From contig CANTAL010000095.1 in the NCBI GenBank assembly GCA_947650365.1, forward strand, positions 868,001-932,000: a stretch of 64,000 nt of DNA. The letters run 5' to 3'. This document shows, piece by piece, positions 1 through 64,000 of the stretch; within the stretch, counting starts at the first letter, position 1, and each line of letters opens with the position of its first letter. The position numbers and the translations under genes are program-made. The notes below the pieces were generated by a model that made no database searches, was not told where the DNA came from, and was given only the letters and a program-made list of their open reading frames with translations. This DNA is from Chamaelirium japonicum (Eukaryota > Streptophyta > Magnoliopsida > Liliales > Melanthiaceae).

Positions 1-4
1 GTAA

Positions 5-27
5 GATCCATTCTAATTCATTCGTAC
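5..27 (+). repeat. Type 23-bp unit (exact consensus example)
   Basis: This is the first perfect copy of the majority unit: GATCCATTCTAATTCATTC then GTAC. It holds three ATTC tetramers (CATTC-TA-ATTC-ATTC), which suggests growth from a shorter ATTC-rich motif (inference). The last bases of one unit and the first of the next form ATTCGTACGAT around the 6-bp palindrome CGTACG. Both G residues of the forward strand lie in CpG: one in TTCGTA, one across the unit boundary in TACGAT. Frequent variants are CATACG, GTATGA, GTACAA, GCACGA, ATTCCTTCG, CTTACTCATT and ATTCTTTCACACG. Confidence 0.95.
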
Positions 28-839
28 GATCCATTCTAATTCATTTGTACGATCCATTCTAATTCATTCGCACGAATGTATCCATTCTAGTTCATTCGTA
101 CGATCCATTCTAATTCATTCGTACGATCCATTCTAATTCCTTCGTACGATCCATTCTAATTCATTCGTACGATCTATTCTAATTCATTCGTACGATCCAT
201 TCTAATTCATTCGTACGATCCTTTCTAATTCCTTCGTACAATCCATTCTAATTCATTCGTACGATCCATTCTAATTCCTTCGTATCCATTCTAATTCACT
301 CATACGATCCATTCTAATTCATTCGTACGATCCATTCTAATTCATTCATACAATCCATTCTAATTCAATCGCACGAATGTATCCATTCTAATTCATTCGT
401 ACGATCAGTTCTAATTCATTCACAAAATCTATTCTAATTCATTTATACGATCCATTCTAATTCATTCACACGAATGTATCCATTCTAATTCATTCATACG
501 ATCCATTATAATTCATTCGTACGATCCATTCTAATTCACTCATACGATCCATTCTAATACATTCACACGATCCATTCTAATTCATTTGCACGAATATATC
601 CATTCTAATTCATTCGTACGATCCATTCTAATTCCTTCGTACGATCCATTCTAATTCATTCGTACGATCTATTCTAATTCATTCATACGATCCATTCTAA
701 TTCATTCGTACGATCCATTCTAATTCCTTCGTACGATCCATTCTAATTCATTCGTATGATCCATTCTAATTCATTCATACAATCCATTCTAATTCTTTCA
801 CACGATCCATTCTAATTCATTCGTACGGTCCATTCTAAT

Positions 840-6884: not shown

Positions 6885-6930
6885 GAATGAATTAGAATGG
6901 ATCATACGAATGGATTAGAATGGATCGTAC

Positions 6931-8368: not shown

Positions 8369-9528
8369 TAATTCATTCATACAATCTATTCTAATTCATT
8401 CGCACGAATGTATCCATTCTAATCCATTCATACGATCCATTCTAATCCATTCGTACGATCCATTCTAATTCATTCGCGTGAATGTAACCATTCTAATTCA
8501 TTCATTTGATCCATTCTAATTTATTCGTACGATCCATTCTAATTCATTCATCCGATCCATTTTAATTCATTCGCACGAATGTATCCATTCTAATTCATTC
8601 GTACGATCCATTCTAATTCATTCGTACGATCCATTCTAATTCATTCGTAAGATCCATTCTAATTCATTCCCACGATCCATTCTAATTTATTCGTACGATC
8701 CATTCTAATTCATTCGTACGATCTATTCTAAATCATTTCACGAATGTAACCATTCTAATTCATTCATACGATTCATTCTAATTCATTCGTATGAGCTATT
8801 CTAATTCATTCGTACGATCCATTCTAATTCATTCGTACGATCTATTATAATTCATTCATTCAATCTATTTAGATTCATTCACACAAATGTATCCATTCAA
8901 ATTCATTCGTACGATCCAGTCTAATTCATTCGTACGATCCATTCTAATTCATTCGCACGAATATATCCATTCTAATTCTTTCGTACGATGCATTCTAATT
9001 CATTCGTACGATCCATTCTAATTCATTCTCACAAATGTATCCATTCTAATTCATTCATACGATCCATTCTAATTCATTCCTACAATCTATTCTAATTCAT
9101 TCGCTCGAATGTATCCATTTTAATTCATTCGTACAATCCATTCTAATTCATTCGTACGATCTAATTCATTCGTACGATCCATTCTAATTCATTCGTACGA
9201 TCGATTCTTATTCATTCGCACTATCCATTCTAATTCATTCGTACGATCCATTCTAATTCATTCGTATGATCCATTCTAATTTATTCGTTCAAATATATCC
9301 ATTGTAATTCATTCGTACGATCCATTCTAATTCATTCGCACGATCCATTCTAATTCATTCGCACGAATGTATCCATTCTAATTCATTTGCACGATCCATT
9401 CTAATTCATTCCTATGATCTATTCTAATTCATTCGTACGATCCATTCTAATTCATTCTAATTCATTCATACGATCCATTCTAATTCATTCATATATTCCA
9501 TTCTAATTCATTAGCACGATCCATGCTA

Positions 9529-9547
9529 ATGAATTAGAATGGATCGT
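9529..9547 (-). repeat. 19-bp reverse island inside a forward block
   Basis: Within forward units the text reads CCATGCTAATGAATTAGAAT followed by GGATCGTACGATCC. About one unit (AATGAATTAGAATGGATCG) is therefore inverted, bounded on the right by the palindrome ATCGTACGAT. The same island recurs at 22977-22995 and 44344-44362. Confidence 0.8.
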
Positions 9548-11006: not shown

Positions 11007-13284
11007 AATGAATTAGAATGGATCGTGTGAAAGAATTAGAATGGATTGTATGAATGAATTAGAATGAATTCGTACGATCCATTCGAATTCATTCGCACGA
11101 TCCATTCTAATTCATTCATACGATCCATTCTAATTCATTCATACGATCCATTCTAATTCATTCGCACAAATATATCCATTCTAGTTCATTCGTACGATCC
11201 ATTCGAATTCATTCGCACGATCCATTCTAATTCATTCATACGATCCATTCTAATTCATTCATACAATCCATTCTAATTCTTTCGCACGAATGTATCCATT
11301 CTAATTCATTCGCACGAATGTATCCATTCTAATTCATTCGTACGATCCATTCCAATTCATTCGTACGATCCATTCTAATTCATTCGTACGATCCATTCTA
11401 ATTCATTCATACGATCTATTCTAATTCATTCATACAATCCATTCTAATTCTTTCACATGATCCATTCTAATTCATTCGTACGATCCATTCTAATTCATTC
11501 GTATGATCCATTCTTACTCATTGGTACGTTCCATTCTAATTCATTCGCACGAATGTATCCATTCTAATTCATTCGTACGAATCCATTCTAATTCAGTCGT
11601 ACAATCCATTCTATTTCATTCGTACGATCCATTCTTACTCATTCGTATGATCCATTTTAATTCATTCGCACGAATGTATCCATTCTAAATCATTCGTACG
11701 ATCCATTCTAATTCATTCGTACGATCCATTCTAAATAATTCGTACAATCCATTCTATTTCATTCGTACGATCAATTCTAATTCATTAGCACGATCCATTC
11801 TAATTCATTCGTACGATCCATTCAAATTCATTCGCATGATCCATTCTAATTCATTCATACAATCCATTCTATTTTATTTGTATGATCCATTCTTACTCAT
11901 TCGTATGATCCATTCTAATTCATTCGCACGAATGTATCCATTCTAATCCATTCGTACGATCCATTCCAATCCATTCGTACGATCCATTCTAATTCATTCG
12001 CATGAATGTAACCATTCTAATTCATTCATTTGATCCATTCTAATTCATTCGTACGATCCATTCTAATTCATTAGTCCGATCCATTCTAATTCATTCGCAC
12101 AAATGTATCCATTCTAAACCATTCATATGATCCATTCTAATTTATTCGTACGATCCATTCTAATTCATTCGTAAGATCCATTCTAATTCATTCGTACGAT
12201 CCATTCTAATTCATTCGTACGATCCATTCTAATTCATTCGTAAGATCCATTCGAATTCATTCGTACGATCCATTCTAATTCATTCGTTTGATTCATAGTA
12301 ATTCATTAGCACGAATGTATCCATTCTAGTTCATTCGTACGATCCATTCTAATTCATTCGTACGATCCATTCTAATTCATTTGCACGATCCATTCTAATT
12401 CATTCGTACGATCCATTCTAATTCATTCATACGATCCATTCTAATTCATTCGTACGATCCATTCTAATTCATTCGCACAAATGTATCCATTCTAATTCAT
12501 TCGTACGATCCATTCTAATTCATTCGCACGATCCATTCTAATTCATTCGTACGATCCATTCTAATTCTTTCACACGATCCATTCTAATTCATTCGTACGA
12601 TCCATTCTAATTCATTCGCACGATCCATTCTAATTCATTCGTACGATCCATTCTAATTCATTCATACGATCCATTCTAATTCATTCGTACGATCCATTCT
12701 AATTCATTCGCACAAATGTATCCATTCTAATTCATTCGTACGATCCATTCTAATTCATTCGCACGATCCATTCTAAACATTCGTACGATCCATTCTAATT
12801 CATTCGCACGATCTGTTCTTATTCATTCGCACAGTCCATTCTAATTCATTCGCATGAATATATCCATTCTAATTCATTCGTACGATCCATTCTAATTCAT
12901 TCGTACGATCCTTTCTAATTCATTCGTATGATCCATTCTAATTAATTCGTATGATCCATTCTAATTCATTCGTACGATCCATTCTAATTCATTCATACAA
13001 TCTATTCTAATTCATTCGTACGATCCATTCTAATTCACTCATACGATCCATTCTAATACATTCATATGATCCATTCTAATTCATTTGCACGAATATATCC
13101 ATTCTAATTCATTTGTACGATCCATTCTAATTCCTTCGTACGATCCATTCTAATTCATTCGTACGATCAATTCTAATTCATTCGTACGATCCATTCTAAT
13201 TCATTCGTACGATCCATTCTAATTCCTTCGTACGATCCATTCTAATTCATTCGTACGATCCATTCTAATTCATTCGTACAATCT

Positions 13285-13345
13285 ATTCTAATTCATTCGT
13301 ACGAATGGATACATTCGTGTGAATGAATTAGAATGGATCGTACGA
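13285..13345. other. Recurrent forward-to-reverse junction, family J4 (six sites)
   Basis: TTCATTCGTACGAATGGATAC, split at the central GTAC, is followed by ATTCGTGTGAATG and GAGTAAGAATGG. The centres are 13300, 22192, 26277, 34034, 43559 and 47644. The perfect palindrome is only 14 bp because the right arm begins with the 28-mer variant GGATAC. Confidence 0.87.
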
Positions 13346-15144
13346 ATGAGTAAGAATGGATCGTACAAATGAAATAAAATGGATTGCTCGAATGAATTAG
13401 AATGGATCGTACAAATGAATTAGAATGGATTGTGTGAAAGAATTAGAATGGATCGTACGAATGAATTAGAATGGATCGTGCGAATGAATTAGAATAGATC
13501 GTACGAATGAATTAGAATGGATCGTCTGAAGGAATTCGAATGGATCGTACGAATGAATTAGAATGGATATATTCGTGCAAATGAATTAGAATGGATCATA
13601 CGAATAAGTAAGAATGGATCATACGAATGAAATAGAATAGATTGTACGAATGAATTAGAATGGATCCTACGAATGAATTAGAATAGATCGTGTGAAAGAA
13701 TTAGAATGGATTGTATGAATGAATTAGAATGGATCGTACGAATGAATTAGAATGGATCGTACGAAGGAATTAGAATGGATCGTGCGAATGAATTAGAATG
13801 GATCGTACGAATGAATCAGAATAGATCGTACGAATGAATTAGAATGGATCGTACGAAGGAATTAGAATGGATCGTACGAATGAATTAGAATGGATATATT
13901 CGTGCAAATGAATTAGAATGGATCGTATGAATGTATTAGAATGGATCGTACGAATGAATTAGAATGGATCGTGTGAAAGAATTAGAATGGATCATACGAA
14001 TGAATTAGAACGGATCGTGCGAATGAATTAGAATGGATCGTACGAATGAATTAGAATGGATACATTTGTGCGAATGAATTAGAATGGATCGTACGGATGA
14101 ATTAGAAAGGATCGTATGAATGAATTAGAATGGATACATTCGTGCGAATGAATTAGAATGGATCGGACGAATGAATTAGAATGGATCATACGAACAAATT
14201 AGAATGGATCAAATGAATAAATTAGAATGGTTACATTCATGCGAATGAATTAGAACGGATCGTACGAATGGATTAGAATGGATCGTACGAATGGATTAGA
14301 ATGGAGACATTCGAGCGAATGAATTAAAATGGATCGTACGAATGAATTAGAATGGATCGTACGAATGGATTAGAATGGATCCTACGAATGGATTAGAATG
14401 GATACCTTTGTGCATTTGAATTAGAATGGATCGTACGAATGAATTAGAATGGATCATATTAATGAATTAGAATGGATCGTACGAATGAATTAGAATGGAT
14501 ACATTCGTGCACGATCCATTCTAATTCATTCCTACGAATGTATCCATTCTAATTCATTCGTACGATCCATTCTAATTCATTCGTACGATCCATTCTAATT
14601 TATTCGTAAGATCCATTCTAATTCATTCGTACGATCCATTCTAATTCATTCATACAATCTATTCTAATTCTTTCGGACGATCCATTCTAATTCATTCGCA
14701 CGATCCATTCTAATTCATTCGTACGATCCATTCTAATTCATTTGTAAGATCCATTCTAATTCATTCGTACGATCCATTCTAATTCATTCGTACGATCCAT
14801 TCTAATTCATTCGCACGAATGTATCCATTCTAGTTCATTCGTACGATCTATTCTAATTCATTCGTACGATCCATTCTAATTCATTCGCACGATCCATTCT
14901 AATTCATTCGTACGATCCATTCTAATTCATTCATACGATCCATTCTAATTCATTCGTATGATCCATTCTAATTCATTCACACAATTGTATCCATTCTAAT
15001 TCATTCGTACGATCCATTCTTATTCATTCGCACGATCCAATCTTACTCATTCGTATGATCCATTCTAATTCATTCGGACGAATGTATACATTCTAATTTA
15101 TTCGTACGATCCATTCTAATTCATTCGTACGATCCATTCTAATT

Positions 15145-15180
15145 CATTCGTAAGATCGAATGGATCGTACGAATTAATTA
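15145..15180. other. Recurrent forward-to-reverse junction, family J5 (four sites)
   Basis: ATTCGTAAGATCGAATGG, then ATCGTACGAATTAATTAG. The joins are near 15156, 20964, 36011 and 42331. There is no palindrome at the centre: a forward unit is cut after GATC and joined to a reverse unit cut before GAATGG. Confidence 0.85.
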
Positions 15181-15800: not shown

Positions 15801-17234
15801 ATTCTTTCACACGATCCATTCTAATTCATTCATACGTTCCATTCTAATTCATTAGCACGATCCATGCTAATTCATTCGTTCGATCAATTCTAATTCATTA
15901 GCACGATCCATTCTAATTCATTCGTACGATCAATTCTAATTCATTCGCACGATCCATTCTAATTCATTCATAGGATCCATTCTAATTCATTCGTACGATC
16001 CATTCTTATTCATTCGCACAAATGTATCCATTGTAATTCATTCATACGATCCATTCTAATTCATTCGTACGATCCATTCTAATTCATTCGTACGATCTAT
16101 TCTAATTCATTAGCACGATCCATGCTAATTCATTCGTTCAATCAATTCTAATTCATTAGCACGATCCATTCTAATTCATTCGTACGATCCATTCTAATTC
16201 ATTCGCACAAATGTATCCATTCTAATTCATTCGTACGATCCATTCTAATTTATTCGCACGATCCATTCTAATTCATTCGTACGATCCATTCTAATTCTTT
16301 CACACGATCCATTCTAATTCATTCGTACGATCCATTCTAATTCATTCGCACGATCCATTCTAATTCATTCATAGGATCCATTCTAATTTATTCATACGAT
16401 CTATTCTAATTCTTTCGCACGAATGTATCCATTCTAATTCATTTGCACGAATGTATCCATTCTAATTCATTCGTACGCTCCATTCTAATTCATTCGTACG
16501 ATCCATTCTAATTAATTCGTACGATCCATTCGATCTTACAAATGAATTAGAATGGATCGTACGAATGAATTAGAATGGATCGTACGAATAAATTAGAATG
16601 TATACATTCGTCCGAATGAATTAGAATGGATCATACGAATGAGTAAGATTGGATCGTGCGAATGAATTAGAATGGATCGTACGAATGAATTAGAATGGAT
16701 ACAATTGTGTGAATGAATTAGAATGGATCATACGAATGAATTAGAATGGATCGTATGAATGAATTAGAATGGATCGTACGAATGAATTAGAATGGATCGT
16801 GCGAATGAATTAGAATGGATCGTACGAATGAATTAGAATAGATCGTACGAATGAACTAGAATGGATACATTCGTGCGAATGAATTAGAATGGATCGTACG
16901 AATGAATTAGAATGGATCGTACGAATGAATTAGAATGGATCTTACAAATGAATTAGAATGGATGGTACGAATGAATTAGAATGGATCGTACGAATGATTT
17001 AGAATGGATACATTCGTGCGAATGAATTAGAATGGATCGGATGAATGAATTAGAATGGATCGTACGAATGAATTAGAATGGATCGTACGAATGAATTAGA
17101 ATTGATCGTGCGAATGAATTAGAATGGATCGTGCGAAAGAATTAGAATAGATTGTATGAATGAATTAGAATGGATCGTACGAATGAATTAGAATGGATCT
17201 TACGAATAAATTAGAATGGATCGTACGAATGAAT

Positions 17235-17270
17235 TAGAATGGATCGTGCATGAATGTATCCATTCTAATT
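17235..17270. other. Recurrent reverse-to-forward junction, family J6 (three sites)
   Basis: GGATCGTGCA(C/T)GAATGTATCC. The joins are near 17250, 38073 and 60538. All are followed by the rare variants TAATATGATCC and CACAAAGGTATCC within 150 bases, so the join and its neighbourhood moved together. Confidence 0.83.
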
Positions 17271-19816
17271 CATTCGTACGATCCATTCTAATTCATTAAT
17301 ATGATCCATTCTAATTCATTCGTACGATCCATTCTAATTCAAATGCACAAAGGTATCCATTCTAATCCATTCGTAGGATCCATTCTAATCCATTCGTACG
17401 ATCCATTCTAATTCATTCGTACGATCCATTTTAATTCATTCGCTCGAATGTCTCCATTCTAATCCATTCGTACGATCCATTCTAATCTATTCGTACGATC
17501 CGTTCTAATTCATTCGCATGAATGTAACCATTCTAATTCATTCATTTGATCCATTCTAATTTATTCGTATGATCCATTCTAATTCATTCGTCCGATCCAT
17601 TCTAATTCATTCGCACGAATGTATCCATTCTAATTCATTCATACGATCCTTTCTAATTCATCCATACGATCCATTCTAATTCATTCGCACAAATGTATCC
17701 ATTCTAATTCATTCGTACGATCCATTCTAATTCATTCGCACGATCCGTTCTAATTCATTCGTATGATCCATTCTAATTCTTTCACACGATCCATTCTAAT
17801 TCATTCGTACGATCCATTCTAATACATTCATACGATCCATTCTAATTCATTTGCACGAATATATCCATTCTAATTCATTCGTACGATCCATTCTAATTCC
17901 TTCGTACGATCCATTCTAATTCATTCGTACGATCTATTCTGATTCATTCGTACGATCCATTCTAATTCATTCGCACGATCCATTCTAATTCCTTCGTACG
18001 ATCCATTCTAATTCATTCGTACGATCCATTCTAATTCATTCATACAATCCATTCTAATTCTTTCACACGATCTATTCTAATTCATTCGTAGGATCCATTC
18101 TAATTCATTCGTACAATCTATTCTATTTCATTCGTATGATCCATTCTTACTCATTCGTATGATCCATTCTAATTCATTTGCACGAATATATCCATTCTAA
18201 TTCATTCGTACGATCCATTCGAATTCCTTCAGACGATCCATTCTAATTCATTCGTGCGATCTATTCTAATTCATTCGCACGATCCATTCTAATTCATTCG
18301 TACGATCCATTCTAATTCTTTCACACAATCCATTCTAATTCATTTGTACGATCCATTCTAATTCATTCGGGCAATCCATTTTATTTCATTTTTACGATCC
18401 ATTCTTACTCATTCGTACGATCCATTCTAATTCATTCACACGAATGTATCCATTCGTACGAATGAATTAGAATAGATTGTACGAATGAATTAGAATGGAT
18501 CGTACGAATGAATTAGAATGGATCGTACGAAGGAATTAGAATGGATCGTACGAATGAATTAGAATGGATCGTACGAATGAATTAGAATTGATCGTACGAA
18601 TGAATTAGAATGGATCGTACGAAGGAATTAGAATGGATCGTACAAATGAATTAGAATGGATATATTCGTGCAAATGAATTAGAATGGATCGTATGAATGT
18701 ATTAGAATGGATCGTATGAGTGAATTAGAATGGATCGTACGAATGAATTAGAATAGATTGTATGAATGAATTAGAATGGATCGTACGAATGAATTAGAAT
18801 GGCTCATACGAATTAATTAGAATGGATCATACGAATGAATTTGAATGGATCGTACGAATGAATTAGAATGGATCGTACGAACGAATTAGAATGGATATAT
18901 TCATGCGAATGAATTAGAATGGACTGTGCGAATGAATAAGAACAGATCGTGCGAATGAATTAGAATGGATCGTACGAATGTTTAGAATGGATCGTGCGAA
19001 TGAATTAGAATGGATCGTACGAATGAATTAGAATGGATACATTTGTGCGAATGAATTAGAATGGATCGTACGAATGAATTAGAATGGATCGTATGAATGA
19101 ATTAGAATGGATCGTACGAATGAATTAGAATGGATCGTGCGAATGAATTAGAATGGATCGTACGAATGAATTAGAATGGATCGTGTGAAAGAATTAGAAT
19201 GGATCGTACGAATGAATTAGAATGGATCGTGCGAATGAATTAGAATGGATCGTACGAATGAATTAGAATGGATACATTTGTGCGAATGAATTAGAATGGA
19301 TCGTACGAATGAATTAGAATGGATCGTATGAATGAATTAGAATGGATCGTACGAATGAATCAAAATGGATCGTGCAAATGAATTAGAATGGATCGTACGA
19401 ATGAATTAGAATGGATCGTACGAATGAACTAGAATGGATACATTCGTGCGAATGAATTACAATGGATCAAACGAATGAATTAGAATGGATCGTACGAATG
19501 AATTCGAATGGATCTTACGAATGAATTAGAATGGATCGTACGAATGAATTAGAATGGATCGTACGAATGAATTAGAATGGATCTTACGAATGAATTAGAA
19601 TGGATCGTACGAATAAATTAGAATGGATCATATGAATGGTTTAGAATGGATACATTCGTGCGAATGAATTAGAATGGATCGGACTAATGAATTAGAATGG
19701 ATCGTACGAATGAATTAGAATGGATCAAATGAATGAATTAGAATGGTTACATTCATGCGAATGAATTAGAATGGATCGTACGAATGGATTAGAATGGATC
19801 GTACGAATGAATTAGA

Positions 19817-43104: not shown

Positions 43105-44343
43105 CCATTCTAATTCATTCGTACGATCCATTCTAATTCATTATTACGATCTATTCTAATTCATTCGTACGATGTATTCTAATTCATTCGTACGATCCAT
43201 TCTAATTCATTAATACAATCTATTCTAATTCATTCATACAATCCATTCAAATTCTTTCACACGATCCATTCTAATTCCTTCGTACGATCCATTCTAATTC
43301 ATTCGTACGATCCATTCTAATTCATTCATACAATCCATTCTAATTCTTTCACACGATCTATTCTAATTCATTCGTACGATCCATTCTAATTCCTTTGTAC
43401 GATCCATTCTAATTCATTCGTACGATCTATTCTAATTCATTCTTACGATCCATTCTAATTCATTCGTACGATCCATTCTAATTCCCTCGTACGATCCATT
43501 CTAATTCATTCGTACGATCCATTCTAATTCATTCGTACAATCTATTCTAATTCATTCGTACGAATGGATATATTCGTGTGAATGAATTAGAATGGATCGT
43601 ACGAATGAGTAAGAATGGATCGTACGAATGAAATAGAATGGATTGCACGAATGAATTAGAATGGATCGTACGAATGAATTAGAATGGATCCTGTGAAAGA
43701 ATTAGAATGGATTGTATGAATGAATTAGAATGGATCGTACGAATGAATTAGAATTGATCGTACTAGGATCCATTCTAATTCATTCGTACAATCTATTCTA
43801 TTTCATTCGTACGATCCATTCTTACTCATTCGTATGATCCAGTCTAATTCATTCGGACGAATGTATCCATTCTATTTTATTCGTACGATCCATTCTAATT
43901 CATTCGTACGATCCATTCTAATTCATTCATATGATCCATTCTTACTCATTCGTGTGATCCATTCTAATTCATTCGTACGATCCATTCTAATTCATTCGTA
44001 CGATCGATTCTAATTCATTCGCACTATCCATTCTAATTCATTCGTACGATCCATTCTAATTCATTCGTATGATCCATTCTAATTTATTCGTTCAAATATA
44101 TCCATTCTAATTCATTCGTACGATCCATTCTAATTTATTCGCACGATCCATTCTAATTCATTCGCACGAATGTATCCATTCTAATTCATTTGCACGATCC
44201 ATTCTAATTCATTCCTATGATCTATTCTAATTCATTCGTACGATCCATTCTAATTCATTCTAATTCATTCGTACGATCCATTCTACGATCCATTCTAATT
44301 CATTCGTATATTCCATTCTAATTCATTAGCATGATCCATGCTA

Positions 44344-44362
44344 ATGAATTAGAATGGATCGT
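44344..44362 (-). repeat. 19-bp reverse island, copy 2
   Basis: Counterpart of 22977-22995 at a shift of 21,367, with identical flanking variants. Confidence 0.8.
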
Positions 44363-47300
44363 ACGATCCAATCTAATTCATTCATACGATCCATTCTTAC
44401 TCATTCGTATGATCCATTCTAATTCAATCGTACGATCCATTCTAATTCATTCGTACGATCCATTCTAATTTATTCGTACGATCCATTCTAATTCATTCGT
44501 ACGATCCATTCTAATTCCTTCGTACAATCCATTCTAATTCATTCGTACGATCCATTCTAATTCATTTGCGCAATCTATTCTAATTCATTCGTACGATCCA
44601 TTCTAATTCAGTCGTACGATCCATTCTAATTCATTCATACAATCCATTCTAATTTATTCGCACGAATGTATCCATTCTAATTCATTCGTACGATCCATTC
44701 TAATTCATTCGCACAATCTATTCTAATTCCTTCATACGATCCATTCTAATTCATTCGCACGAATGTATCCATTCTAATTCATTCATACGATCCATTCTAC
44801 TTCATTCATACTATCCGTTCTAATTCACTCATAAGATCCATTCTAATTCATTCATACGATCCATTCTAATTCATTTGCACGAATATATCCATTCTAATTC
44901 ATTCGTACGATCCATTCTAATTCCTTCGTACGATCCATTCTAATTCCTTCGTACGATCCATTCTATTTCATTCGTATGATCCATTCTAATTCCTTCGTAC
45001 GATCCATTCTAATTCCTTCGTATCCATTCTAATTCACTCATACGATCCATTCTAATTCATTCGTACGATCCATTCTAATTCATTCATACAATCCATTCTA
45101 ATTCATTCGCACGAATGTATCCATTCTAATTCATTCGTACGATCAGTTCTAATTCATTCACAAAATCTATTTTAATTCACTCATACGATCCATTCTAATT
45201 CATTCACACGAATGTATCCATTCTAATTCATTCATACGATCCATTCTAATTCATTCGTACGATCCATTCTAATTCACTCATACGATCCATTCTAATGCAT
45301 TCATATGATCCATTCTAATTCATTTGCACAAATATATCCATTCTAATTCATTCGTACGATCCATTCTAATTCCTTCGTATGATCCATTCTAATTCATTCG
45401 TACGAGCCATTCTAATTCATTCGTACGATCCATTCTAATTCATTCGTACGAATGGATTAGAATGAATTAGAATGGATCGTACGAATGAATAAGAATGGAT
45501 CGTATGAGTGAATTAGAATGGATACGAAGGAATTAGAATGGATCGTACGAAGGAATTAGAATGGATCATACGAATGAAATAGAATGGATCGTACGAAGGA
45601 ATTAGAATGGATCGTACGAAGGAATTAGAATGGATCGTACGAAGGAATTAGAATGGATCGTACGAATGAATTAGAATGGATATATTCGTGCAAATGAATT
45701 AGAATGGATCGTTTGAATGAATTAGAATGGATCGTATGACTGAATTAGAACGGATAGTACGAATGAAGTAGAATGGATCGTATGAATGAATTAGAATGGA
45801 TACATTCGTGTGAATGAATTAGAATGGATCGTATGAATGAATTAGAATAGATTTTGTGAATGAATTAGAATGGATCGTATGAATGAATTAGAATGGATAC
45901 ATTCGTGCGAAAGAATTAGAATGGATTGTATGAATGAATTAGAATGGATCGTACGAATGAACTAGAATGGATACATTCGTGCGAATGAATTAGAATGGAT
46001 CGTACGAATGAATTAGAATAGATTGCGCGAATGAATTAGAATGGATCGTGCGAATGAAATAGAATGGGTACAAATGAATTAGAATGGATCATACGAATGA
46101 ATTAGAATGACGATCCATTCTTACTCATTCGTATGATCCATTCAAATTTATTCGCACGAATGTATCCATTCTAATTCATTCGTACGTCTAATTCATTCGT
46201 ACGGTCCATTCTAATTCATTCGCACAATCCATTCTATTTCATTTGTACGATCCATTCTAATTCATTGAAACGATCCATTCTAATTCATTCGTACGATCCA
46301 TTCTAATTCATTCGCACGAATGTATCCATGCTAGTTCATTCATACGATCCATTCTAATTCATTCGTACGATCCATTCTAATTCATTTGCACGATCCATTC
46401 TAATTCATTCGTACAATCCATTCTAATTCATTCACACGAATGTATCCATTCTAATTCATTCGTACATACGATCCATTCTAATTCATTCGTACGAATGTAT
46501 CCATTCTAATTCATTTGTATAATCCATTCTATTTCATTCGAACGATCCATTCTTACTCATTTGTATGATCCATTCTAATTCATTCGCACGAATGTACCCA
46601 TTCTAATTCATTCGTACGATCCATTCTAATTCATTCGTATGATCCATTCTAATTTATTCGTTCAAATATATCCATTCTAATTCATTCGTACGATCCATTC
46701 TAATTCATTCGCACGATCCATTCTAATTCATTCGCACGAATGTATCCATTCTAATTCATTTGCACGATCCATTCTAATTCATTCCTATGATCTATTCTAA
46801 TTCATTCGTACGATCCATTCTAATTCATTCGCTCGAATGTATCCATTCTAATTCATTCGTATGATCCATTCTAATTCGTTCATTTGATCAATTCTAATTC
46901 GTTCGTACGATCCATTCTAATTCTTTCGTACGATCCATTCTAAATCCTTCGTATGATCCATTCTAATTCATTCCTACGATCTATTCTAATTCATTCGCTC
47001 GAATATATCCATCCTAATTCATTCATTCGATCCATTCTAATTCATTCGTACGATCCATTCTAATTCATTCGTATGATCCATTCTAATCCATTCGTACGAT
47101 CCATTCTAATTCATTCGTACGATCCATTCTAATTCATTCGCACGAATGTATCCATTCTAGTTCATTCGTACGATCCATTCTATTTCATTCATACAATCCA
47201 TTCTAATTCATTCGTACGATCCATTCTAATTCATTCGCACAAATGTATCCATTCTAATTCATTCGTACGATCCATTCTAATTCATTCGCACGATCCATTC

Positions 47301-50300
47301 TAATTCATTCGTACGATCCATTCTAATTCATTCGCACGAATGTATCCATTCTAGTTCATTCGTACGATCGATTCTAATTCATTCGTACGATCCATTCTAA
47401 TTCATTCGCACGATCCATTCTAATTCATTCGTACGATCCATTCTAATTCATTCGCACGAATGTATCCATTCTAGTTCATTCGTACGATCCATTCTAATTC
47501 ATTCGTACGATCCATTCTAATTCATTTGCACGATCCATTCTAATTCATTCGTACGATCCATTCTAATTCATTCATACGATCCATTCTAATTCATTCGTAC
47601 GATCCATTCTAATTCATTTGCACAATCTATTCTAATTCATTCGTACGAATGGATACAATTGTGTGAATGAATTAGAATGGATCGTACGAACGAGTAAGAA
47701 TGGATCGTACGAATGAAATAGAATGGATTACACGAATGAATTAGAATGGATCGTACGAATGAATTAGAATGGATCGTGTGAAAGAATTAGAATGGATTGT
47801 ATGAATGAATTAGAATGGATCGTACGAATGAATTAGAATGGATCGTACGCATTCGTACGATCCATTCTAATTCCTTCGTAAGATCCATTCTAATTCATTC
47901 GTACGATCCATTCTAATTCATTCGCGCAATCTATTCTAATTCATTCGTACGATCCATTCTAATTCATTCGTACAATCCATTCTAATTCATTCATACAATC
48001 CATTCTAATTTATTCGCACGAATGTATCCATTCTAATTCATTCGTACGATCCATTCTAATTCATTCACACAATCTATTCTAATTCATTCATACGATCCAT
48101 TCTAATTCATTCGCACGAATGTATCCATTCTAGTTCATTCGTACCATCCATTCAAATTCATTCGTACGATCCATTCTAATTCATTCATACGATCTATTCT
48201 AATTCATTCATACAATCCATTCTAATTCTTTCACACGATCCATTACAATTCATTCGTAAGATCCATTCTAATTCATTCGTACGATCCATTCTAATTCATT
48301 CGTACGATCCATTCTAATTCATTCGCACAAATGTATCCATTCTAATTCATTCGTACGATTCATTCTTATTCATTCGTATGATCCATTCTAATTCATTCGT
48401 ACGATCCATTCTAATCCATTCGTACGATCCATTCTAATTCATTCGCATGAATGTAACCATTCTAATTCATTCATTTGATCCATTCTAATTCATTCATACG
48501 ATCCGTTCTAATTCATTCGTTCGATCCATTCTAATTCATTCGCACGAATGTATCCATTCTAATTCATTCATACGATCCATTCTAATTCATTCGTACGGTC
48601 TATTCTAATTCATTCGCACAATCCATTCTAATTCATTCGTACGATCCATTCTAATTCATTCTAATTCTTTCACACGATCCATTCTAATCCATTCTAATTC
48701 TTTCACACGATCCATTCTAATTCATTCGTACGTTCCATTCTAATTCATTAGCACGATCCATGTTAATTTATTCGTTCGATCAATTCTAATTCATTAGCAC
48801 GATCCATTCTAATTCATTCGTACGATCCATTCTAATTCATTCGTACGATCTATTCGAATTCATTCGCACGATCCATTCTAATTCATTCATAGGATCCATT
48901 CTATTTCATTCATACGATCTATTCTAATTCTTTCGCACGAATATATCCATTCTAATTCATTCGCATGAATGTATCCATTCTAATTCATTCGTACGATCCA
49001 TTCTAATTCATTCGCATGAATGTAACCACTCTAATTCATTCATTTGATCCATTCTAATTCATTCGTACGATCCATTCTAATTCATTCGTCCGATCCATTC
49101 TAATTCATTCGCACGAATGTATCCATTCTAATTCATTCGTATGATCCATTCTAATTCTTTCGTACGATCCATTCTAATTCATTCATAAGATCCATTCTAA
49201 TTCATTCGTACGATCCATTCTAATTCATTTGTACGATCCATTCTAATTCATTCGCACGAATGTATCCATTCTAGTTAATTCGTACGATCCATTCTAATTC
49301 ATTCGTACGATCCATTCTAATTCATTCGCACGATCCATTCTAATACATTCGTACGGTCAATTCTAATTCATTCGCACGAATGTATCCATTCTATTTCATT
49401 CATACGATCCATTCTAATTCATTCGTACGATCCATTCTACTTCATGCGAATGAATTAGAATGGATCGTACGAATGGATTAGAATGGATCGTATGAATGTA
49501 TTAGAATGGATACATTCGAGCGAATGAATTAGAATGGATCGTACGAATGAATTAGAATGGATCGTACGAATGGATTAGAATGGATCCTACGAATGGATTA
49601 GAATGGATACCTTTGTGCATATGAATTAGAATGGATCGTACGAATGAATTAGAATGTATCATATTAATGAATTAGAATGGATCGTACGAATGAATTAGAA
49701 TGGATACATTCGTGCGAATGAATTAGAATGGATCGTGCGAATCAATTAGACTGGATCGTGCGAATGAATAAGAATAGATCATACGAATGAATTAGAATGG
49801 ATCGTACGAAGGAATTAGAATGGATCATATGAATGAAATAGAATGGATCGTACGAAGGAATTAGAATGGATCGTACGAAGGAATTAGAATTGATCGTACG
49901 AAGGAATTAGAATGGATCGTACGAAGGAATTAGAATGGATCGTACGAAGGAATTAGAATGGATATATTCGTGCAAATGAATTAGAATGGATCGTATGAAT
50001 GAATTAGAATGGATCGTATGAGTGAATTAGAACGGATAGTACGAATGAAGTAGAATGGATCGTATGAATGAATTAGAATGGATACATTCGTGCGAATGAA
50101 TTAGAATGGATCTTATGAATGAATTAGAATAGATTGTGCGAATGAATTAGAATGGATCGTACGAATGAATTAGAATGGTTACATTCGTGCGAATAAATTA
50201 GAATGGATTGTATGAATGAATTAGAATGGATCGTACGAATGAATTAGAATGGATCGTACGAATAAATTAGAATAGATTGCGCGAATGAATTAGAATGGAT

Positions 50301-52632
50301 CGTACGAATGAATTAGAATGGATCGTACGAAGGAATTAGAATGGATCGTACGAATGCGTACGATCCATTCTAATTCCTTCGTACGATCCATTCTAATTCA
50401 TTCGTACGATCCATTCTAATTCATTCATACAATCCATTCTAATTCTTTCACACGATCCATTCTAATTCATTCGTACGATCCATTCTAATTCATTCGTGCA
50501 ATCCATTCTATTTCATTCGTACGATCCATTCTTACTCATTCGTACGATCCATTCTAATTCATTCACACGAATGCATCCACTCGTACGAATGAATTAGAAT
50601 AGATTGTACGAATGAATTAGAATGGATCGTACGAATGAATTAGAATGGATCATACGAAGGAATTAGAATAGATCGTACGAATTAATTAGAATGGATCGTA
50701 CGAATGAATTAGAATAGATCGTACGAATGAATTAGAATGGATCGTACAAAGGAATTAGAATGGATCGTACGAATGAATTAGAATGGATATATTCGTGCAA
50801 ATGAATTAGAATGATCGTATGAATGTATTAGAATGGATCGTATGAGTGAATTAGAATGGATCGCATGAATGAATTAGAATGGATCATATGAATGAATTAG
50901 AATGGATACATTCGTGCGAATGAATTAGAATTGATCGTACGAATGAATTAGAATGGATCGTGCCAATGAATTAGAATGGATCGTACGAATGAATTAGAAT
51001 GGATCGTACGAATGAACTAGAATGGATACATTCGTGCGAATGAATTAGAATGGATCGTACGAATGAATTAGAATGGATCGTACGAATGAATAAATTAGAA
51101 TGGATTGTGGGAATGAATTAGAATGGATTGTACGAATGAATTAGAATGAATTAGCACAAATGAATTAGAATGGATACATTTGTACGATCCATTCTAATTC
51201 ATTCGTACAATCCATTCTATTTCATTAGTACGATCCATTCTTACTCATTCGTATGATCCATTCTAATTCATTCGCACGAATGTATCCATTCTTATTCATT
51301 CATACAATCCATTCTAATTCATTCCGTACCATCCATTCTAATTCATTCGCATGAATGTAACCATTCTAATTCATTCATTTGATCCATTCTAATTCATTCG
51401 TACGATCCATTCTAATTCATTCGTCCGAACCATTCTAATTCATTCGCTCGAATGTATCCATTCTAATTCATTCGTACGATCCATTCTAATTCATTTGTAC
51501 GATCCATTCTAATTCATTCGTAAGATCCATTCTAATTCAATCGTACGATCCATTCTAATTCATTCGTACGATCCATTCTAATCCATTCGTACGATCCATT
51601 CTAATTCATTCGCATGAATGTAACCATTCTAATTCATTCATTTGATCCAATCTAATTCATTCGTACAATCTATTCTAATTCATTCGTACATTCCATTCTA
51701 ATTCATTCGTACGATCCATTCTAATTCATTCATCCGATCCATTCTAATTCATTCGCACGAATGTATCCATTCTAATACATTCGTACGATCCATTCTAATC
51801 CATTCTAATTCTTTCACAAAATCTATTCTAATTCATTCATACGATCCATTCTAATTCATTCACACGAATGTATCTATTCTAATTCATTCATACGATCCAT
51901 TCTATTCATTCGTACGATTCATTCTTACTCATTGGTACGATCCATTCTAATTCATTCGCACGATCCATTCTAATTCATTCGTACGATCCATTCTAATTCA
52001 TTCGTACGATCCATTCTAATTCATTCGTACGATCCATTCTAATTCATACGATTCAATCTAATTCATTCTAATTCGTACGATCCATTCTAATTCATTCGCA
52101 TGAATGTAACCATTCTAATTCATTCATTTGATCCATTCTAATTCATTCGTATGATCCATTCTAATTCATTCGTCCGATCCATTCTAATCCATTCACACGA
52201 ATGTAACATTTCTAATTCATTCGTACGATTCATTCTAAATCATTCGTACGATCCATTCTAATTCATTCGTAAGATCCATTCTAATTCATTCGTACGATCC
52301 ATTCTAATTCATTCGTACGATCCATTCTAATTCATTCGCACGAATGTATCCATTCTAGTTCATTCGTACGATCCATTCTAATTTATTCGTCCGATCCATT
52401 CTAATTCATTCGCACGAATGTATCCATTCTAATTCATTCGTACGATCCATTCTAATTCATTCGTACGATCCATTCTAATTCATTCGTACGATCTATTCTA
52501 ATTCATTCGTACGATCCATTCTTACTCATTCGTACGATCCATTCTTACTCATTCGTATGATCCATTCTAATTCATTCGCACGAATGTATCCATTCTAATT
52601 CATTCATACAATCTATTCTAATTCATTCCGTA

Positions 52633-52684
52633 CGATCCATTCTAATTCATTCGTACGATCGTACGAATGAATTAGAATGGATCG
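52633..52684. repeat. 52-bp perfect palindrome at a forward-to-reverse switch
   Basis: The left arm CGATCCATTCTAATTCATTC+GTACGA is mirrored exactly by the right arm, centred on CGATCG (52658/52659), with no spacer. The matching site in copy 1 (centre 31291/31292) has TTTGTACG instead of TTCGTACG, so its perfect core is only 12 bp. Beyond the perfect core, forward units on the left face reverse units on the right for over a kilobase. Confidence 0.92.
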
Positions 52685-53839
52685 GATGAATGAATTAGAA
52701 TGGATCATACAAATGAGTAAGAATGGATCGTACGAATGAAATAGAATGGATTATACGAATGAATTAGAATGGATCGTGCGAATGAATTTGAATGGTTCAT
52801 ACGAATGAATTAGAACGGATCGTGCTAATGAATTAGAATTGATCGTACGAATGAAATAGAATGGATTATACGAATGATTTAGAATGGATCGTACGAATGA
52901 ATTAGAATGGATCGTACGAATGATTTAGAATGGATACATTCGTGCGAATGAATTAGAATGGATCATACGAATGAGTAAGAATGGATCGTACGAATGAAAT
53001 AGAATGGATTGTACGAATGAATTAGAATGGATTCGTATGAATGAATTAGAATGGATACATTCGTGCGAATGAATTAGAATGGATCGTACCAATGAGTAAG
53101 AATGGATCGTACGAATGAAATAGAATGGATTGTGCGAATGAATTAGAATGGATCGTACGAATGAATTAGAATGGATCGTGTGAAAGAATTAGAATGGATT
53201 GTATGAATAAATTAGAAAAGATCGTATGAATGAATTAGAATGGATCGTACGAATGAATTAGAATGGATACATTCGTGCGAATGAATTAGAATGGATACAT
53301 TCATGCGAAAGAATTAGAATAGATCGTATGAATGAATTAGAATGGATCCTATGAATGAATTAGATTGGATCGTGCGAATGAATTAGAATGGATCGTACGA
53401 ATGAATTAGAATGGATCGTGCTAATGAATTAGAATTGATCGAACGAATGAATTAGCATGGATCGTGCAAATGAATTAGAATGGAACGTACGAATGAATTA
53501 GAATGGATCGTGTGAAAGAATTAGAATGGATTGTATGAATGAATTAGAATGGATCGTACGAATGAATTAGAATGGATCGTGTGAAAGAATTTGAATGGAT
53601 TGTATGAATGAATTAGAATAGATTGTATGAATGAATTAGAATGGATCGTACGAATGAATTAGAATAGATCGTAATAATGAATTAGAATGGATCGTACGAA
53701 TGAATTAGAATGGATCGTGTGAAAGAATTAGAATGGATCGTAAGAATGAATTAGAATGGATCGTGCGAATGAATTAGAATGGATCATACGAATGAATTAG
53801 AATGGATCGTGCTAATGAATTAGAATTGATCGAACAAAT

Positions 53840-56642: not shown

Positions 56643-56682
56643 ATCCATTCTAATTCATTCGTACGAATGAATTAGAATGGAT
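56643..56682. repeat. 40-bp perfect palindrome at a forward-to-reverse switch
   Basis: The left arm ATCCATTCTAATTCATTC+GT is mirrored exactly around the centre of GTAC (56662/56663). This junction uses CATTCGTACGAATG as its core, a different join from the CGATCG type. Confidence 0.92.
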
Positions 56683-59600
56683 CGTACGAATGAATTAGAA
56701 TAGATCGTACGAATGAATTAGAATGGATCGTACGAAGGAATTAGAATTGATCGTACGAATGAATTAGAATGGATATATTCGTGCAAATGAATTAGAATGG
56801 ATCATACAAATTAATTAGAATGGATCATACGAATGAATTAGAATGGATCGTACGAATGAATTAGAATCAATCGTACGAATGAATTAGAAGGGATACATTC
56901 GTGCGATCCATTCTAATTCATTCGCACAATCCATTCTATTTCATTCGTACGATCCATTCTTACTCATTGGTACGATCCATTCTAATTCATTCGCACGAAT
57001 GTATCCATTCTAATTCATTTGTACGAATCCATTCTAATTCATTCGCACGATCTATTCTAATTCATTCGCATGAATGTAACCATTCTAATTCATTCGTACG
57101 ATCCATTCTAATTCATTCGTACGATCCATTCTAATTCTTTCACACGATCCATTCTAATTCATTCACACGAATGTATCCATTTGTACGAATGAATTAGAAT
57201 AGATTGCGAATGAATTAGAATGGATCGTACGAATGAATTAGAATGGATCGTGTGAAAGAATTAGAATGGATCGTACGAATGAATTAGAATAGATCGTGCG
57301 AATGAATTAGAATGGATCGTACGAATGAATTAGAATGGATCGTGCTAATGAATTAGAATTGATCGAACGAATCAATTAGCATGGATCGTGCATTCGTACG
57401 ATCCATTCTAATTTATTCGTAAGATCCATTCTAATTCATTCGTACGATCCATTCTAATTCATTCGTACGATCCATTCTAATTCATTCGCACGAATATATC
57501 CATTCTAGTTCATTCGTACGATCCATTCTAATTCATTCGTAAGATCCATTCTAATTCATTCGTACGATCCAGTTTAATTGATTCGCAAGATCCATTCTAA
57601 TTCATTCGCACGAATGTATCCATTCTAATTCATTCGTACGATCCATTCTAATTCATTAATATGATCCATTATAATTCAATCGTACGATCCATTCTAATTC
57701 ATATGCACAAAGGTATCCATTCTAATCCATTCATAGGATCCATTCTAATCCATTCGTACGATCCGTTCTAATTCATTCGTACGATCCATTCTAATTCATT
57801 CGCTCGAATGTATCCATTCTAATCCATTCGTACAATCCATTCTAATCCATTCGTACGATCCATTCTAATTCATTCGCATGAAGTAGATTGGATCGTACGA
57901 ATGAATTAGAATGCATCGTATGAATGAATTAGAATGAATACATTCGTGCGAAAGAATTAGAATAGATCGTATGAATGAATTAGAATGGATCCTTTGAATG
58001 AATTAGAATGGATCGTTAGAATGAATTAGAATGGATCATACGAATGAATTAGAATGGATCGTTCTAATGAATTAGAATTGATCGAACGAATGAATTAGCA
58101 TGGATCGTGCTAATGAATTAGAATGGAACGTACGAATGAATTAGAATGGATCGTGTGAAAGAATTAGAAAGGATTGTATGAATGAATTAGAATGAATTCG
58201 TACGATCCATTCGAATTCATTCGCACGATCCATTCTAATTCATTCATACGATCCATTCTAATTCATTCGTACGATCCATTCTAATTCATTCGCACAAATG
58301 TATCCATTCTAATTCATTCGTACGATTCATTCTTACTCATTCGTATGATCCATTCTAATTCATTCATACGATCCATTCTAATTCATTCATACGATCCATT
58401 CTAATTCATTCGTACGATCCATTCTAATTCATTCGCACAAATGTATCCATTCTAATTCATTCGTACGATTCATTCTTACTCATTCGTATGATCCATTCTA
58501 ATTCATTCGTACGATTCATTCTTACTCATTCGTATGATCCATTCTAATTCATTCGTACGATCCATTCTAATCCATTCGTACAATCCATTCTAATTCATTC
58601 GCATGAATGTAACCATTCTAATTCATTCATTTGATCCATTCTAATTCATTCGTACGATCCATTCTAATTCATTCGTCCGATCCATTCTAATTCATTCGCA
58701 CGAATGTATCTATTCTACTTCATTCATACGATCCATTCTAATTCATTCGTACGGTCCATTCTAATTCATTCGCACAATCCATTCTAATTCATTCGTACGA
58801 TCCATTCTAATTCATTCTAATTCTTTCACACTACGAATGGATTAGAATGGATACCTTTGTGCATATGAATTAGAATGGATCGGACGAATGAATTAGAATG
58901 GATCATATTAATGAATTTGAATGGATCGTACGAATGAATTAGAATGGATACATTCGTGCGAATGAATTAGAATGGATCGTGCGAATCAATTAGACTGGAT
59001 CGTGCGAATGAATAAGAATAGATCATACGAATGAATTAGAATGGATCGTACGAATTAATTAGAATGGATACATTTGTGCGAATGAATTAGAATGGATTGT
59101 ATGAATGAATTAGAATGGATCGTACGAATGAATTAGAATGGATTACACGAATTAATTAGAATGGATCATACGAATGAATTAGAATGGATCGTACGAATGA
59201 ATTAGAATGGATCGTACGAATGAATTAGAATGGATACATTCGTGCGAATGAATTAGAATGGATTGTGCAAATGAATTAGAATGGATCGTGTGAAAGAATT
59301 AGAATGGATCGTACGAATGAATTAGAATGGATCGTGCGAATGAATTAGAATGGATCATACGAATGAATTAGAATGGATCATGTGAAAGAATTAGAATGGA
59401 TCGTACGAATGAATTAGAATGGATCGTGCGAATGAATTAGAATGGATCGTACGAATGAATTAGAATGGATCGTGCTAATGAATTAGAATTGATCGAACGA
59501 ATGAATTAGCATGGATCGTGCATTCGTACGATCCATTCTAATTCATTCGTAAGATCCATTCTAATTCATTCGTACGATCCATTCTAACTCATTCGTACGA

Positions 59601-62600
59601 TCCATTCTAATTCATTCGCACGAATGTATCCATTCTAGTTCATTCGTACGATCCATTCTAATTCATTCGTACGATCCATTCTAATTTGTTCATACGATCT
59701 TTTCTAATTCATTCATACAACCATTCTAATTCTTTCACACGATCCATTCTAATTCATTCGTATGATCCATTCTAATTCATTCGTACGATCCATTCTAATT
59801 CTTTTGTACGATCCATTCTAATTCATTCGTACAATCCATTCTATTTCATTCGTACGATCCATTCTTACTCATTCGTATGATCCATTCTAATTCATTCGCA
59901 CGAATGTATCCATTCTAATTAATTCATACAATCCATTCTAATTCATTCCGTATGATCCATTCTAATTCATTCGCATGAATGTAACCATTCTAATTCATTC
60001 ATTTGATCCATTCTAATTCATTCGTACCATCCATTCTAATTCATTCGTCTGATCCATTCTAATTCATTCGCACGAATGTATCCATTCTAATTCATTCGTA
60101 CTATCCATTCTAATTCATTCATACGAATCCATTCTAATTCATTCGTAAGATCCATTCTAATTCATTCGTATGATCCATTCTAATTCATTCGTACGATCCA
60201 TTCTAATTCATTCGCACGAATGTATCCATTCTAGTTCATTCGTACGATCCATTCTAATTCATTTGTACGATCCATTCTAATTCATTCGCACGATCCATTC
60301 TAATTCATTCGTACGATCAATTCTAATTCATTCGCACGAATGTATCCATTCTAATTCATTCGTACGATCCTGAATTAGAATTGATCGTACGAATGAATTA
60401 GAATGGATACCTTTGTGCATATGAATTAGAATGGATCATACGAATGAATTAGAATGGATCATATTAATGAATTAGAATGGATCGTACGAATAAATTAGAA
60501 TGGATACATTCGTGCGAATGAATTAGAATGGATCGTGCACGAATGTATCCATTCTAATTCATTCGTACGATCCATTCTAATTCATTAATATGATCCATTC
60601 TAATTCATTCGTACGATCCATTCTAATTCATATGCACAAAGGTATCCATTTTAATCCGTTCGTAGGATCCATTCTAATCCATTCGTACGATCCATTCTAA
60701 TTCATTCGTACGATCCATTCTAATTCATTCGCTCGAATGTATCCATTTTAATCCATTCGTACGATCCATTCTAATCCATTCGTATGATCCATTCTAATTC
60801 ATTTGCATGAATGTAACCATTCTAATTCATTCATTTGATCCATTCTAATTCATTCGTACGATCCATTCTAATTCATTCGTCCGATCAATTCTAATTCATT
60901 CGCACGAATGTATCCATTCTAATTCATTCGTACGATCCATTCTAATTCATTCGTACGATCCATTCTAATTTATTCATAAGATCCATTCTAATTCATTCGT
61001 ACGATCCATTCTAATTCATTCGTACGATCCATTCTAATTCATTCGCACGAATGTATCCATTCTAGTTCATTCGTACGATCCATTCTAATTCATTCGTACG
61101 ATGCATTCTAATTCATTCACACGATCCATTCTAATTCATTCGTACGATCAATTCTAATTCATTCGCACGAATGTATCCATTCTAATTCATTCATATGATC
61201 CATTCTAATTCATTCGTACGATCCATTCTAATTCATTCGCACGAATGTATCCATTCTAATTCATTCGTACGATCCATTCTAATTCATTCGTACGATCCAT
61301 TATAATTCCTTCGTACGATCCATTCTAATTCATTCGTACGATCCATTCTAACTCATTCATACAATCCATTCAAATTCTTTCACACGATCCATTCTAATTC
61401 ATTCGTACGATCCATTCTAATTCATTCGTGCAATCCATTCTATTTCATTCGTACGATCCATTCTTATTCATTCGTACGATCCATTCTAATTCATTCACAC
61501 GAATGTATCCATTCGTACGAATGAATTAGAATAGGTTGTACGATTTAATTAGAATGGATCGTACGAATGAATTAGAATGGATCGTACGAAGGATTTAGAA
61601 TGGATCGTACGAATAAATTAGAATGGATCGTACGAATGAATTAGAATAGATCATACGAATGAATTAGAATGGATTGTACGAAGAAATTAGAATGGATCGT
61701 ACGAATGAATTAGAATGGATCGTACGAATGAATTAGAATGGATCATATGAATGAATTAGAATGGATCGTACGAATGAACTAGAATGGATACATTCGTGCG
61801 AATGAATTAGAATGGATCGTACGAATGAATTAGAATGGATCGTACGAAAAAATTAGAATGGATACATTCGTCCGAATGAATTAGAATGGATCATATGAAT
61901 GAGTAAGAATGGATCGTACGAATAAAATAGAATAGATTGTACGAATGAATTAGAGTGGATCCTACGAATGAATTAGAATGGATCGTGTGAAAGAATTAGA
62001 ATGGATTGTATGAATGAATTAGAATGGATCGTATGAATGAATTAGAATGGATCGTGCGAATGAATTCGAATGGATCGTACGAATTCATTCTAATTCATTC
62101 ATACAATCCATTCTAATTCTTTCACACGATCTATTCTAATTCATTCGTAGGATCCATTCTAATTCATTCGTACAATCCATTCTAATTCATTCGTACGATC
62201 CATTTTAATTCATTCGTACGATCCATTCTAATTCATTCGTAAGATCCATTCTAATTCATTCGTACGATCCATTCTAATTCATTCGTACGATCCATTCTAA
62301 TTCATTCGCATGAATGTATCCATTCTAGTTCATTCGTACGATCCATTCTAATTCATTCGTATGATCCATTCTAATTCATTCGCACGATCCATTCTAATTC
62401 ATTCGTACGATCCATTCTAATTCATTCATACGATCCATTCTAATTCATTTGTACGATCCATTCTAATTCATTCGCACGATCCATTCTTAGTCATTCGTAT
62501 GATCCATTCTAATTCATTCGCACGAATGTATCCATAATGGATCATACGAATGAGTAAGAATGGATCGTACGAATGAAATAGAATCGATTGTGCGATGGAT

Positions 62601-64000
62601 CATACGAATGAGTAAGAATGGATCGTACGAATGAAATAGAATGGATTGTACGAATGAATTTGAATGGATCGTGTGAATGAATTTGAATGGATCGTACGAA
62701 TAAATTAGAATGGATCGTGCTAATGAATTAGAATTGATCGTACGAATGAAATAGAATGGATTGTACGAATGATTTAGAATGGATCGTACGAATGAATTAG
62801 AATGGATACATTCGTGCGAATGAATTAGAATGGATACATTCATGCGAAAGAATTAGAATAGATCGTATGAATGAATTAGAATGGATCCTATGAATGAATT
62901 AGAATGGATCGTGCGAATGAATTAGAATGGATCGTACGAATGAATTAGAATGGATCGTGCTAATGAATTAGAATTGATCGAACGAATGAATTAGCATGGA
63001 TCGTGCTAATGAATTAGAATGGAACGTACGAATGAATTAGAATGGATCGTGTGAAAGAATTAGAATGGATTGTATGATTGAAATAGAATGAATTCGTACG
63101 ATCCATTCGAATTCATTCGCACGATCCATTCTAATTCATTCATACGATCCATTGTAATTCATTCATACAATCCATTCTAATTCTTTCACACGATCCATTC
63201 TAATCATTCGTAGGATCCATTCTAATTCATTCGTACGATCCATTCTAATTCATTCGTAAGATCCATTCTAATTCATTCGTACGATCCATTCTAATTCATT
63301 CGTACGATCCATTCTAATTCATTCGCACGAATGTATCCATTCTAGTTCATTCGTATGATCCATTCTAATCCATTCGTACGATCCATTATAATTCATTCGC
63401 ATGAATGTAACCATTCTAATTCATTCATTTGATCCATTCTAATTTATTCGTACGATCCATTCTAAGTCATTCGTCCGATACATTCTAATTCATTCGCACG
63501 AATATATCAATTCTAATTCATTCGCACGATCCATTCTAATTCATTCGTACGATCCATTCTAATTCATTCGTACGATCCATTCTAATTCATTCATAGGATC
63601 TTAGAATGGAATATACGAATGAATTAGAATGGATCGTATGAATGAATTAGAATGGATCGTACGAATGAATTAGAATGGATCGTGCTAATGAATTAGAATT
63701 GATCGTACGAATGAAATTGAATGGATTGTACGAATGATTTAGAATGGATCGTACGAATGAATTAGAATGGATACATTCGTGCGAAAGAATTAGAATAGAT
63801 CGTATGAATGAATTAGAATGGATCCTATGAATGAATTAGAATGGATCGTGCGAATGAATTAGAATGGATCAAACGAATGAATTAGAATGGATCGTACGAA
63901 TGAATTAGAATGGATCGTGCTAATGAATTAGAATTGATCGAACTAATGAATTAGCATGGATCATGCTAATGAATTAGAATGGAATGTATGAATGAATTAG

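Follow-up and report, generated by a model that had tools for sequence, protein, structure and literature searches.

The holocentromere satellite of Chionographis japonica, Chio1/Chio2, is a CENH3-associated repeat of 23 bp for which the 9-mer TTCGTACGA has been named (PMC12722358), and it is accompanied by a published variant of 28 bp that differs by 5 bp and one substitution. In the available parts of the 2023 report (PMC10264360), the CENH3 enrichment of the two Chio clusters is given as 11.1- and 11.7-fold, the mean interval between centromere units as 9.97 Mb, and the primary assembly as 1,526,137,861 bp in 3,786 contigs, obtained from 58.5x HiFi reads. Alternating orientation of the satellite was published there and again in 2025, when it was worded as "frequently alternating orientation" (PMC12722358).

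Two further systems bear comparison. The Chama satellite of Chamaelirium luteum, from the sister genus, is centromeric and has the 9-mer TTCGTACGA in common with the array described below, but its unit measures 60 bp and its arrays are oriented consistently and show higher-order structure on a scale of several hundred kilobases (PMC12722358, available parts). In Tribolium madens, the putative (peri)centromeric satellites TmSat1/TmSat2 switch orientation at conserved inversion sites, although their unit is built from an element of ~110 bp and, in the accessible portion of PMC13081366, mostly two subarrays per array and few named inversion types are described.

Orientation Blocks in a Chio1/Chio2 Array

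The stretch of DNA analyzed here, referred to as the window, is the 64-kb interval C107:868001-932000, and searches covered an assembly of similar size, with 1,518,659,071 bases in 3,253 contigs. Throughout the window, GTACGATCCATTCTAATTCATTC and its reverse complement are repeated in tandem, with a period of 23 by TRF and a consensus that includes TTCGTACGA; as the published full consensus takes the form of a figure, the comparison rests on the 9-mer. The 28-bp variant is also present. Specifically, an ATGTA insert is entered 386 times, and 206 of the 380 monomers with the insert carry C at phase 6, versus 509 of 2,299 others, which amounts to a partial link between the insert and the substitution of the 28-bp variant. 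By virtue of its period, the 9-mer and the ATGTA variant, the repeat matches Chio1/Chio2 as judged from sequence, and the window is almost certainly part of a C. japonica centromere. Part of C1 is also roughly in line with the published spacing of large arrays: a 52-mer spanning a junction, for which all 100 matches listed are on contig C1, forms four clusters there (~1.4-3.3, 10.4-10.5, 17.2-18.3 and 27.4-28.5 Mb), and these start 7 to 10 Mb apart in the first 28.5 Mb of C1, among the matches listed and with units that lack the 52-mer invisible. Telomere arrays of the plant (Arabidopsis-type) motif TTTAGGG are present in the genome. We found no feature that separates the window from Chio1/Chio2 as described in the available parts of PMC10264360 and PMC12722358. 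This includes the mixture of forward and reverse arrays, which is already known and not new.

A phase-resolved HMM divided the window into 80 orientation blocks of 20 to 2,827 bp (median 660), with 37,786 bp in forward (F) and 26,214 bp in reverse (R) orientation. A simple 8-mer Viterbi segmentation, which has the same underlying consensus, likewise returned 80 blocks (F 37,708 bp, R 26,285 bp). Three of the blocks are 20-bp micro-inversions (Table 1), and merging these into their neighbors leaves 74 blocks of 166 to 2,827 bp and 73 flips. These are the block and flip counts of an earlier sequence-only reading of this DNA, whose strand sums (~37.8 kb forward, 26.2 kb reverse) match ours as well. 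That reading had further described the switches as free of spacer, which is borne out by the insertion states of the HMM, since these take only 41 of the 64,000 bases; it had also proposed GC skew as a check, and the sign of the skew indeed changes along the window in 2-kb bins. With respect to decoder performance, three simulated 64-kb one-orientation arrays with the base frequencies of the window gave 0 flips each, and 599 flips were called for 599 planted, 98.8% of them no more than 5 bp from a planted one. Chance and decoder noise are ruled out by these controls as the source of the flips. The mosaic is therefore real and, as had been claimed, the dominant structure of the window, and we agree that unit-by-unit slippage is insufficient to explain it, as slippage cannot turn a unit round.

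Table 1. Coordinates of the array, its duplicated segments and selected junctions (positions within the window; F>R, forward to reverse; R>F, reverse to forward)
Feature	Position	Strand	Details
Chio1/Chio2 satellite array	1-64000	.	~2,711 monomers (1,598 F, 1,113 R), 80 orientation blocks, phase-resolved decoder
Inverted 20-bp micro-block between two forward blocks	9528-9547	-	Also 22976-22995 and 44343-44362; exact 52-mer across both junctions, 2,721 genome-wide
3.7-kb segment	11410-15150	+	Direct repeat at 32144-35884, offset 20,734, 97.8%
Inverted copy of 11581-15150	16613-20187	-	3.6-kb arms, 95.4%, ~1.5 kb between arms
F>R junction after base 18455	18440-18470	.	Exact 51-mer, 6,342 copies genome-wide; family of 15 members (identity 0.90), also at 932, 4935, 7721, 39279 and 61514, inverted at 13302, 22194, 34036 and 43561, and others
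Copy A of 13.7-kb duplicated stretch, many flips	18454-32140	+	blastn HSP of 13,755 columns, 97.0%
Direct copy of 11410-15150	32144-35884	+	97.8%
Copy B of 13.7-kb stretch	39821-53507	+	Offset 21,367 from copy A
R>F junction after base 42943	42930-42956	.	Exact 47-mer, 10,904 copies genome-wide; family also at 21576, 36623, 55550 and 62084, among others
F>R junction after base 56664, seamless	56655-56674	.	On axis of 8-bp dyad TCGTACGA
F>R junction after base 58831	58820-58843	.	Exact 40-mer, 1 in window, 61 genome-wide
F>R junction after base 63600	63588-63612	.	Exact 41-mer, 1 in window, 21 genome-wide

To the left of the window, C107 contains two non-satellite insertions. The insertion at ~793-799.5 kb (from ~L007:4900; bounds estimated from 2-kb bins) includes an ORF matching Retrotrans_gag PF03732 (E 1.1e-07), so that a retrotransposon has probably entered the Chio array here. 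The insertion at ~809-818 kb (at least L009:962-9479) has direct repeats 7.6 kb apart with 97-98% identity, like an LTR element, and contains no ORF of at least 120 aa. Called flips over 768-828 kb number 33, 52 and 61 per 20 kb versus 21, 24 and 27 in the first three 20-kb bins of the window, where the second and third of the former bins include both insertions, in which calls are meaningless.

Junction Families and Their Copies

Junctions were clustered on the 60 bp either side of each flip, and their pairwise identities are bimodal. The 79 junctions of the window fall into 23 families (22-25 at thresholds of 0.91-0.94); another clustering yielded 20 to 26 families at 0.92-0.95 and 14 at 0.90, a level at which unlike junctions get chained. 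The flips are thus not 73 separate events, as the sequence-only reading had taken them to be: the 79 junctions reduce to 22-25 families, and a flip-rich stretch of 13.7 kb is present twice. This duplication had gone unnoted in the sequence-only reading; its two copies, compared over 11,931 aligned bases (twelve 1-kb stretches), agree at 99.35%, with 138 gap bases besides. On C1, at ~2.51-2.83 Mb, the same distances between junction matches keep reappearing (1,706 bp, for instance, is seen four times), which suggests that modules tens of kilobases long recur along the array.

In total, 384 flips were called on C107, of which the 279 flanked on either side by 100 bp of clear satellite were kept, including all 79 of the window, and 130 of the 200 junctions outside the window match a window family. 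The full set of 326 junctions, which adds 47 from seven far loci, forms 83 families with 47 singletons. As 35 families were reached at 80 junctions, the curve is still rising, and new flips or diverged junction copies keep appearing. Five of these loci (L022-L026) were chosen at, or close to, matches of window junctions, which biases the figure of 30 of 34 junctions matching window families there; in the less biased loci, 1 of 4 (L027, C20) and 0 of 9 junctions (L029, C150:200001-205000) match window families. The Chio stretch L029, on an unplaced contig, is perhaps a diverged subfamily. Among 11 one-kb stretches located 18 to 580 kb from matches of rare junctions, three are without a flip, and the others contain 12 junctions, 6 of which match a window junction at an identity of at least 0.925 and 9 of which match any catalogued junction. 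Of the 12 far stretches first taken, five (L028, L030-L033) were non-satellite and were left out.

Family members also resemble each other beyond the sequence used to define them. Specifically, same-family identity is 0.911 versus 0.892 across families at 240 bp, and 0.902 versus 0.893 at 360 bp (2,533 pairs, non-independent), so that the excess reaches ~250-350 bp from the junction, past the 60 bp that were clustered on. Such similarity, a few hundred bases past the junction, is more easily explained by copying than by a hot spot at which orientation switched many times independently. Moreover, all five junction sequences that were searched are multi-copy genome-wide (6,342, 10,904, 2,721, 61 and 21 copies), with strand counts, in the same order, near 50:50 (3191/3151, 5425/5479, 1366/1355, 31/30 and 10/11). 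Both orientations are also mixed inside scaffold C1, where the arbitrary orientation of unplaced contigs plays no part. The two rare junctions (61 and 21 copies, full listings) are both found on C1, C2 and C7, and one of them is found on each of C3 and C9, in addition to smaller contigs. What is added here to the published picture is that most orientation switches seem to be copies drawn from a limited stock of old switches common to several chromosomes. The accessible portions of the Chio1/Chio2 papers (PMC10264360, PMC12722358) contain no junction families, dyad-favored breakpoints or inversion and fold-back tests, and no earlier junction analysis of Chio was found in the literature searched, which included the available text of these papers and of PMC13081366.

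Junctions and the 8-bp Dyad

In terms of where within the monomer the junctions fall, axes were counted for 77 of the 83 families, namely those with the junction in main-cycle phases. The axis of the 8-bp dyad TCGTACGA accounts for 16 of the 77 versus 3.3 expected, a count that could be inflated by split families, as families are defined by similarity. An excess on the dyad axis is also seen in five other clusterings, from 6/39 to 21/93 (binomial p 6e-3 to 4e-10, families taken as independent), and the decoder is unbiased on this axis (25 of 569 in the control, 24.7 expected). Junctions of the R>F type on the dyad axis follow bases 8357, 9547, 22995, 29793, 44362, 51183 and 56903 of the window. 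This site would be the easiest for short-homology joining or template switching, because both orientations read alike there. Axis 12 of the R>F type is over-used as well: it holds 7 of the 37 R>F families, and consensus homology there amounts to 1 bp at most. Consensus homology is absent altogether from 33 of the 77 families (14 of the 40 F>R and 19 of the 37 R>F). The dyad is a favored but not the sole junction axis, and many families lie off it.

The dyad occupies monomer phases 3-10, and both CpGs of the 23-bp consensus sit within it. Of 2,618 near-full monomers, 37% carry it unchanged, which makes it the second least intact of the 23 8-mers of the monomer and argues against a strictly conserved dyad element. 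Changes are mostly CpG-type transitions together with a T-to-C variant, such that 81% of near-full monomers are either intact or carry only changes of these kinds, and this variation would fit DNA methylation of the array. A fixed binding site at the dyad would be without support from sequence conservation; CpG decay could mask one.

Origin of the Orientation Changes

We favor, at a probability of roughly 70%, an explanation in which rare orientation-blind joins, favored at the palindrome, were later copied, turned around and dispersed together with the satellite, so that the mosaic is mainly an inherited and shuffled library of old flips. Array breaks or stalled forks would now and then be re-joined without regard to orientation, either by end joining or by short-homology template switching. 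The dyad TCGTACGA would be the favored join site, both strands reading the same, and each join would leave a founder forward/reverse junction. Multi-kilobase modules bearing these junctions, which are observed in multiple copies, may subsequently have been amplified by unequal exchange, break-induced copying or re-insertion of circular DNA. Finally, recombination between opposite-facing copies would invert modules, which predicts the observed near equality of the two orientations for the searched junction types on several chromosomes. Phase breaks that keep the orientation show about the same variety as flips (74 families for breaks of at least 5 bp and 110 for those of at least 3 bp, versus 83 flip families), as expected if ends join regardless of orientation; some of these breaks may be plain small indels, which makes the comparison weaker.

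Another origin, in which every reverse block is a simple inversion in place or the flips stem from palindromic (fold-back) duplication of the block next to them, appears improbable. An in-place inversion would link the monomer phases at both ends of the reverse block, and no such signal was seen: 14 of 260 adjacent pairs fit (4.8% expected), and among 115 unique family pairs 8 do, where a uniform distribution would give 5.0. A fold-back would render the two arms of a junction more alike than the arms of other junctions. There is no general signal of this kind either, as own-arm identity averages 0.909 (37 F>R families) and 0.907 (36 R>F families) versus 0.906 for other-family arms, and own arms beat 95% of other-family arms in just 5% of the F>R families and 8% of the R>F families. 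Nonetheless, own arms reach an identity of at least 0.95 in five of the 73 families tested (best 0.984), among which a few fold-backs are possible, and the multi-kilobase inverted copies within the window (Table 1) do show inversion or inverted copying at the scale of modules. Old inversions could also have lost their paired signature by later shuffling. The notion that the flips are assembly errors draws on the difficulty of assembling large satellites and on at least two contigs of round size (2,670,000 and 55,000). Against this, identical junctions recur 21 to 10,904 times, those fully listed are on many scaffolds, and the published assembly was built on 58.5x HiFi reads (PMC10264360). The 13.7-kb copies, moreover, differ at ~0.65% of aligned bases and so are not one sequence laid down twice. 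On these sequence comparisons, the mosaic is very unlikely to be an assembly artifact.

More weight, though still that of an unlikely alternative, can be given to the idea that alternating orientation is selected, with opposing arms forming hairpins or cruciforms (macro-dyad symmetry) that would specify or organize the centromere, as proposed for Tribolium beetles. The Tribolium work is the nearest parallel that we found, and it supplies the principal argument that flips play a structural role. The satellites of T. madens are reported to have a comparable layout in which inversion sites are conserved (PMC13081366, available parts); here too, inversion-site sequences are conserved across arrays, all five that were searched being kept in multiple copies, up to thousands. 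Two opposing subarrays do not predominate in the window, however, which holds 80 blocks of 20 to 2,827 bp and ~23 junction families in 64 kb. Single strands of 120 nt at three junction sites fold at -32.1, -39.2 and -21.1 kcal/mol, compared with -9.7 and -5.2 kcal/mol for two junction-free stretches, but almost any forward/reverse junction would fold in this way, and these energies are therefore no test of selection. The low conservation of the dyad described above also speaks against selection, as do the consistently oriented centromeric arrays of the sister species C. luteum (PMC12722358, available parts). Given this ready folding and the arrays of the sister species, the flips are probably a by-product rather than something that the centromere requires, and CENH3 loading would be independent of monomer direction.

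Implications for Holocentromere Evolution

Returning to copied and shuffled orientation-blind joins, it is an evenly balanced proposition that the holocentromere satellite constitutes a shuffled library of old orientation junctions common to many centromere units, which would act as heritable marks able to trace satellite spread, and that the 8-bp palindrome, in print proposed as a hairpin former, is a favored site of orientation change. How the satellite spread to ~100 centromere units was left open in the available parts of the 2023 report, with interlocus conversion, inversions and circular DNA as options (PMC10264360). Junctions are specific marks that are far easier to trace than 23-bp monomers, and a full junction catalogue could reveal between which units sequence has been exchanged and whether the appearance of new units goes along with changes of orientation.
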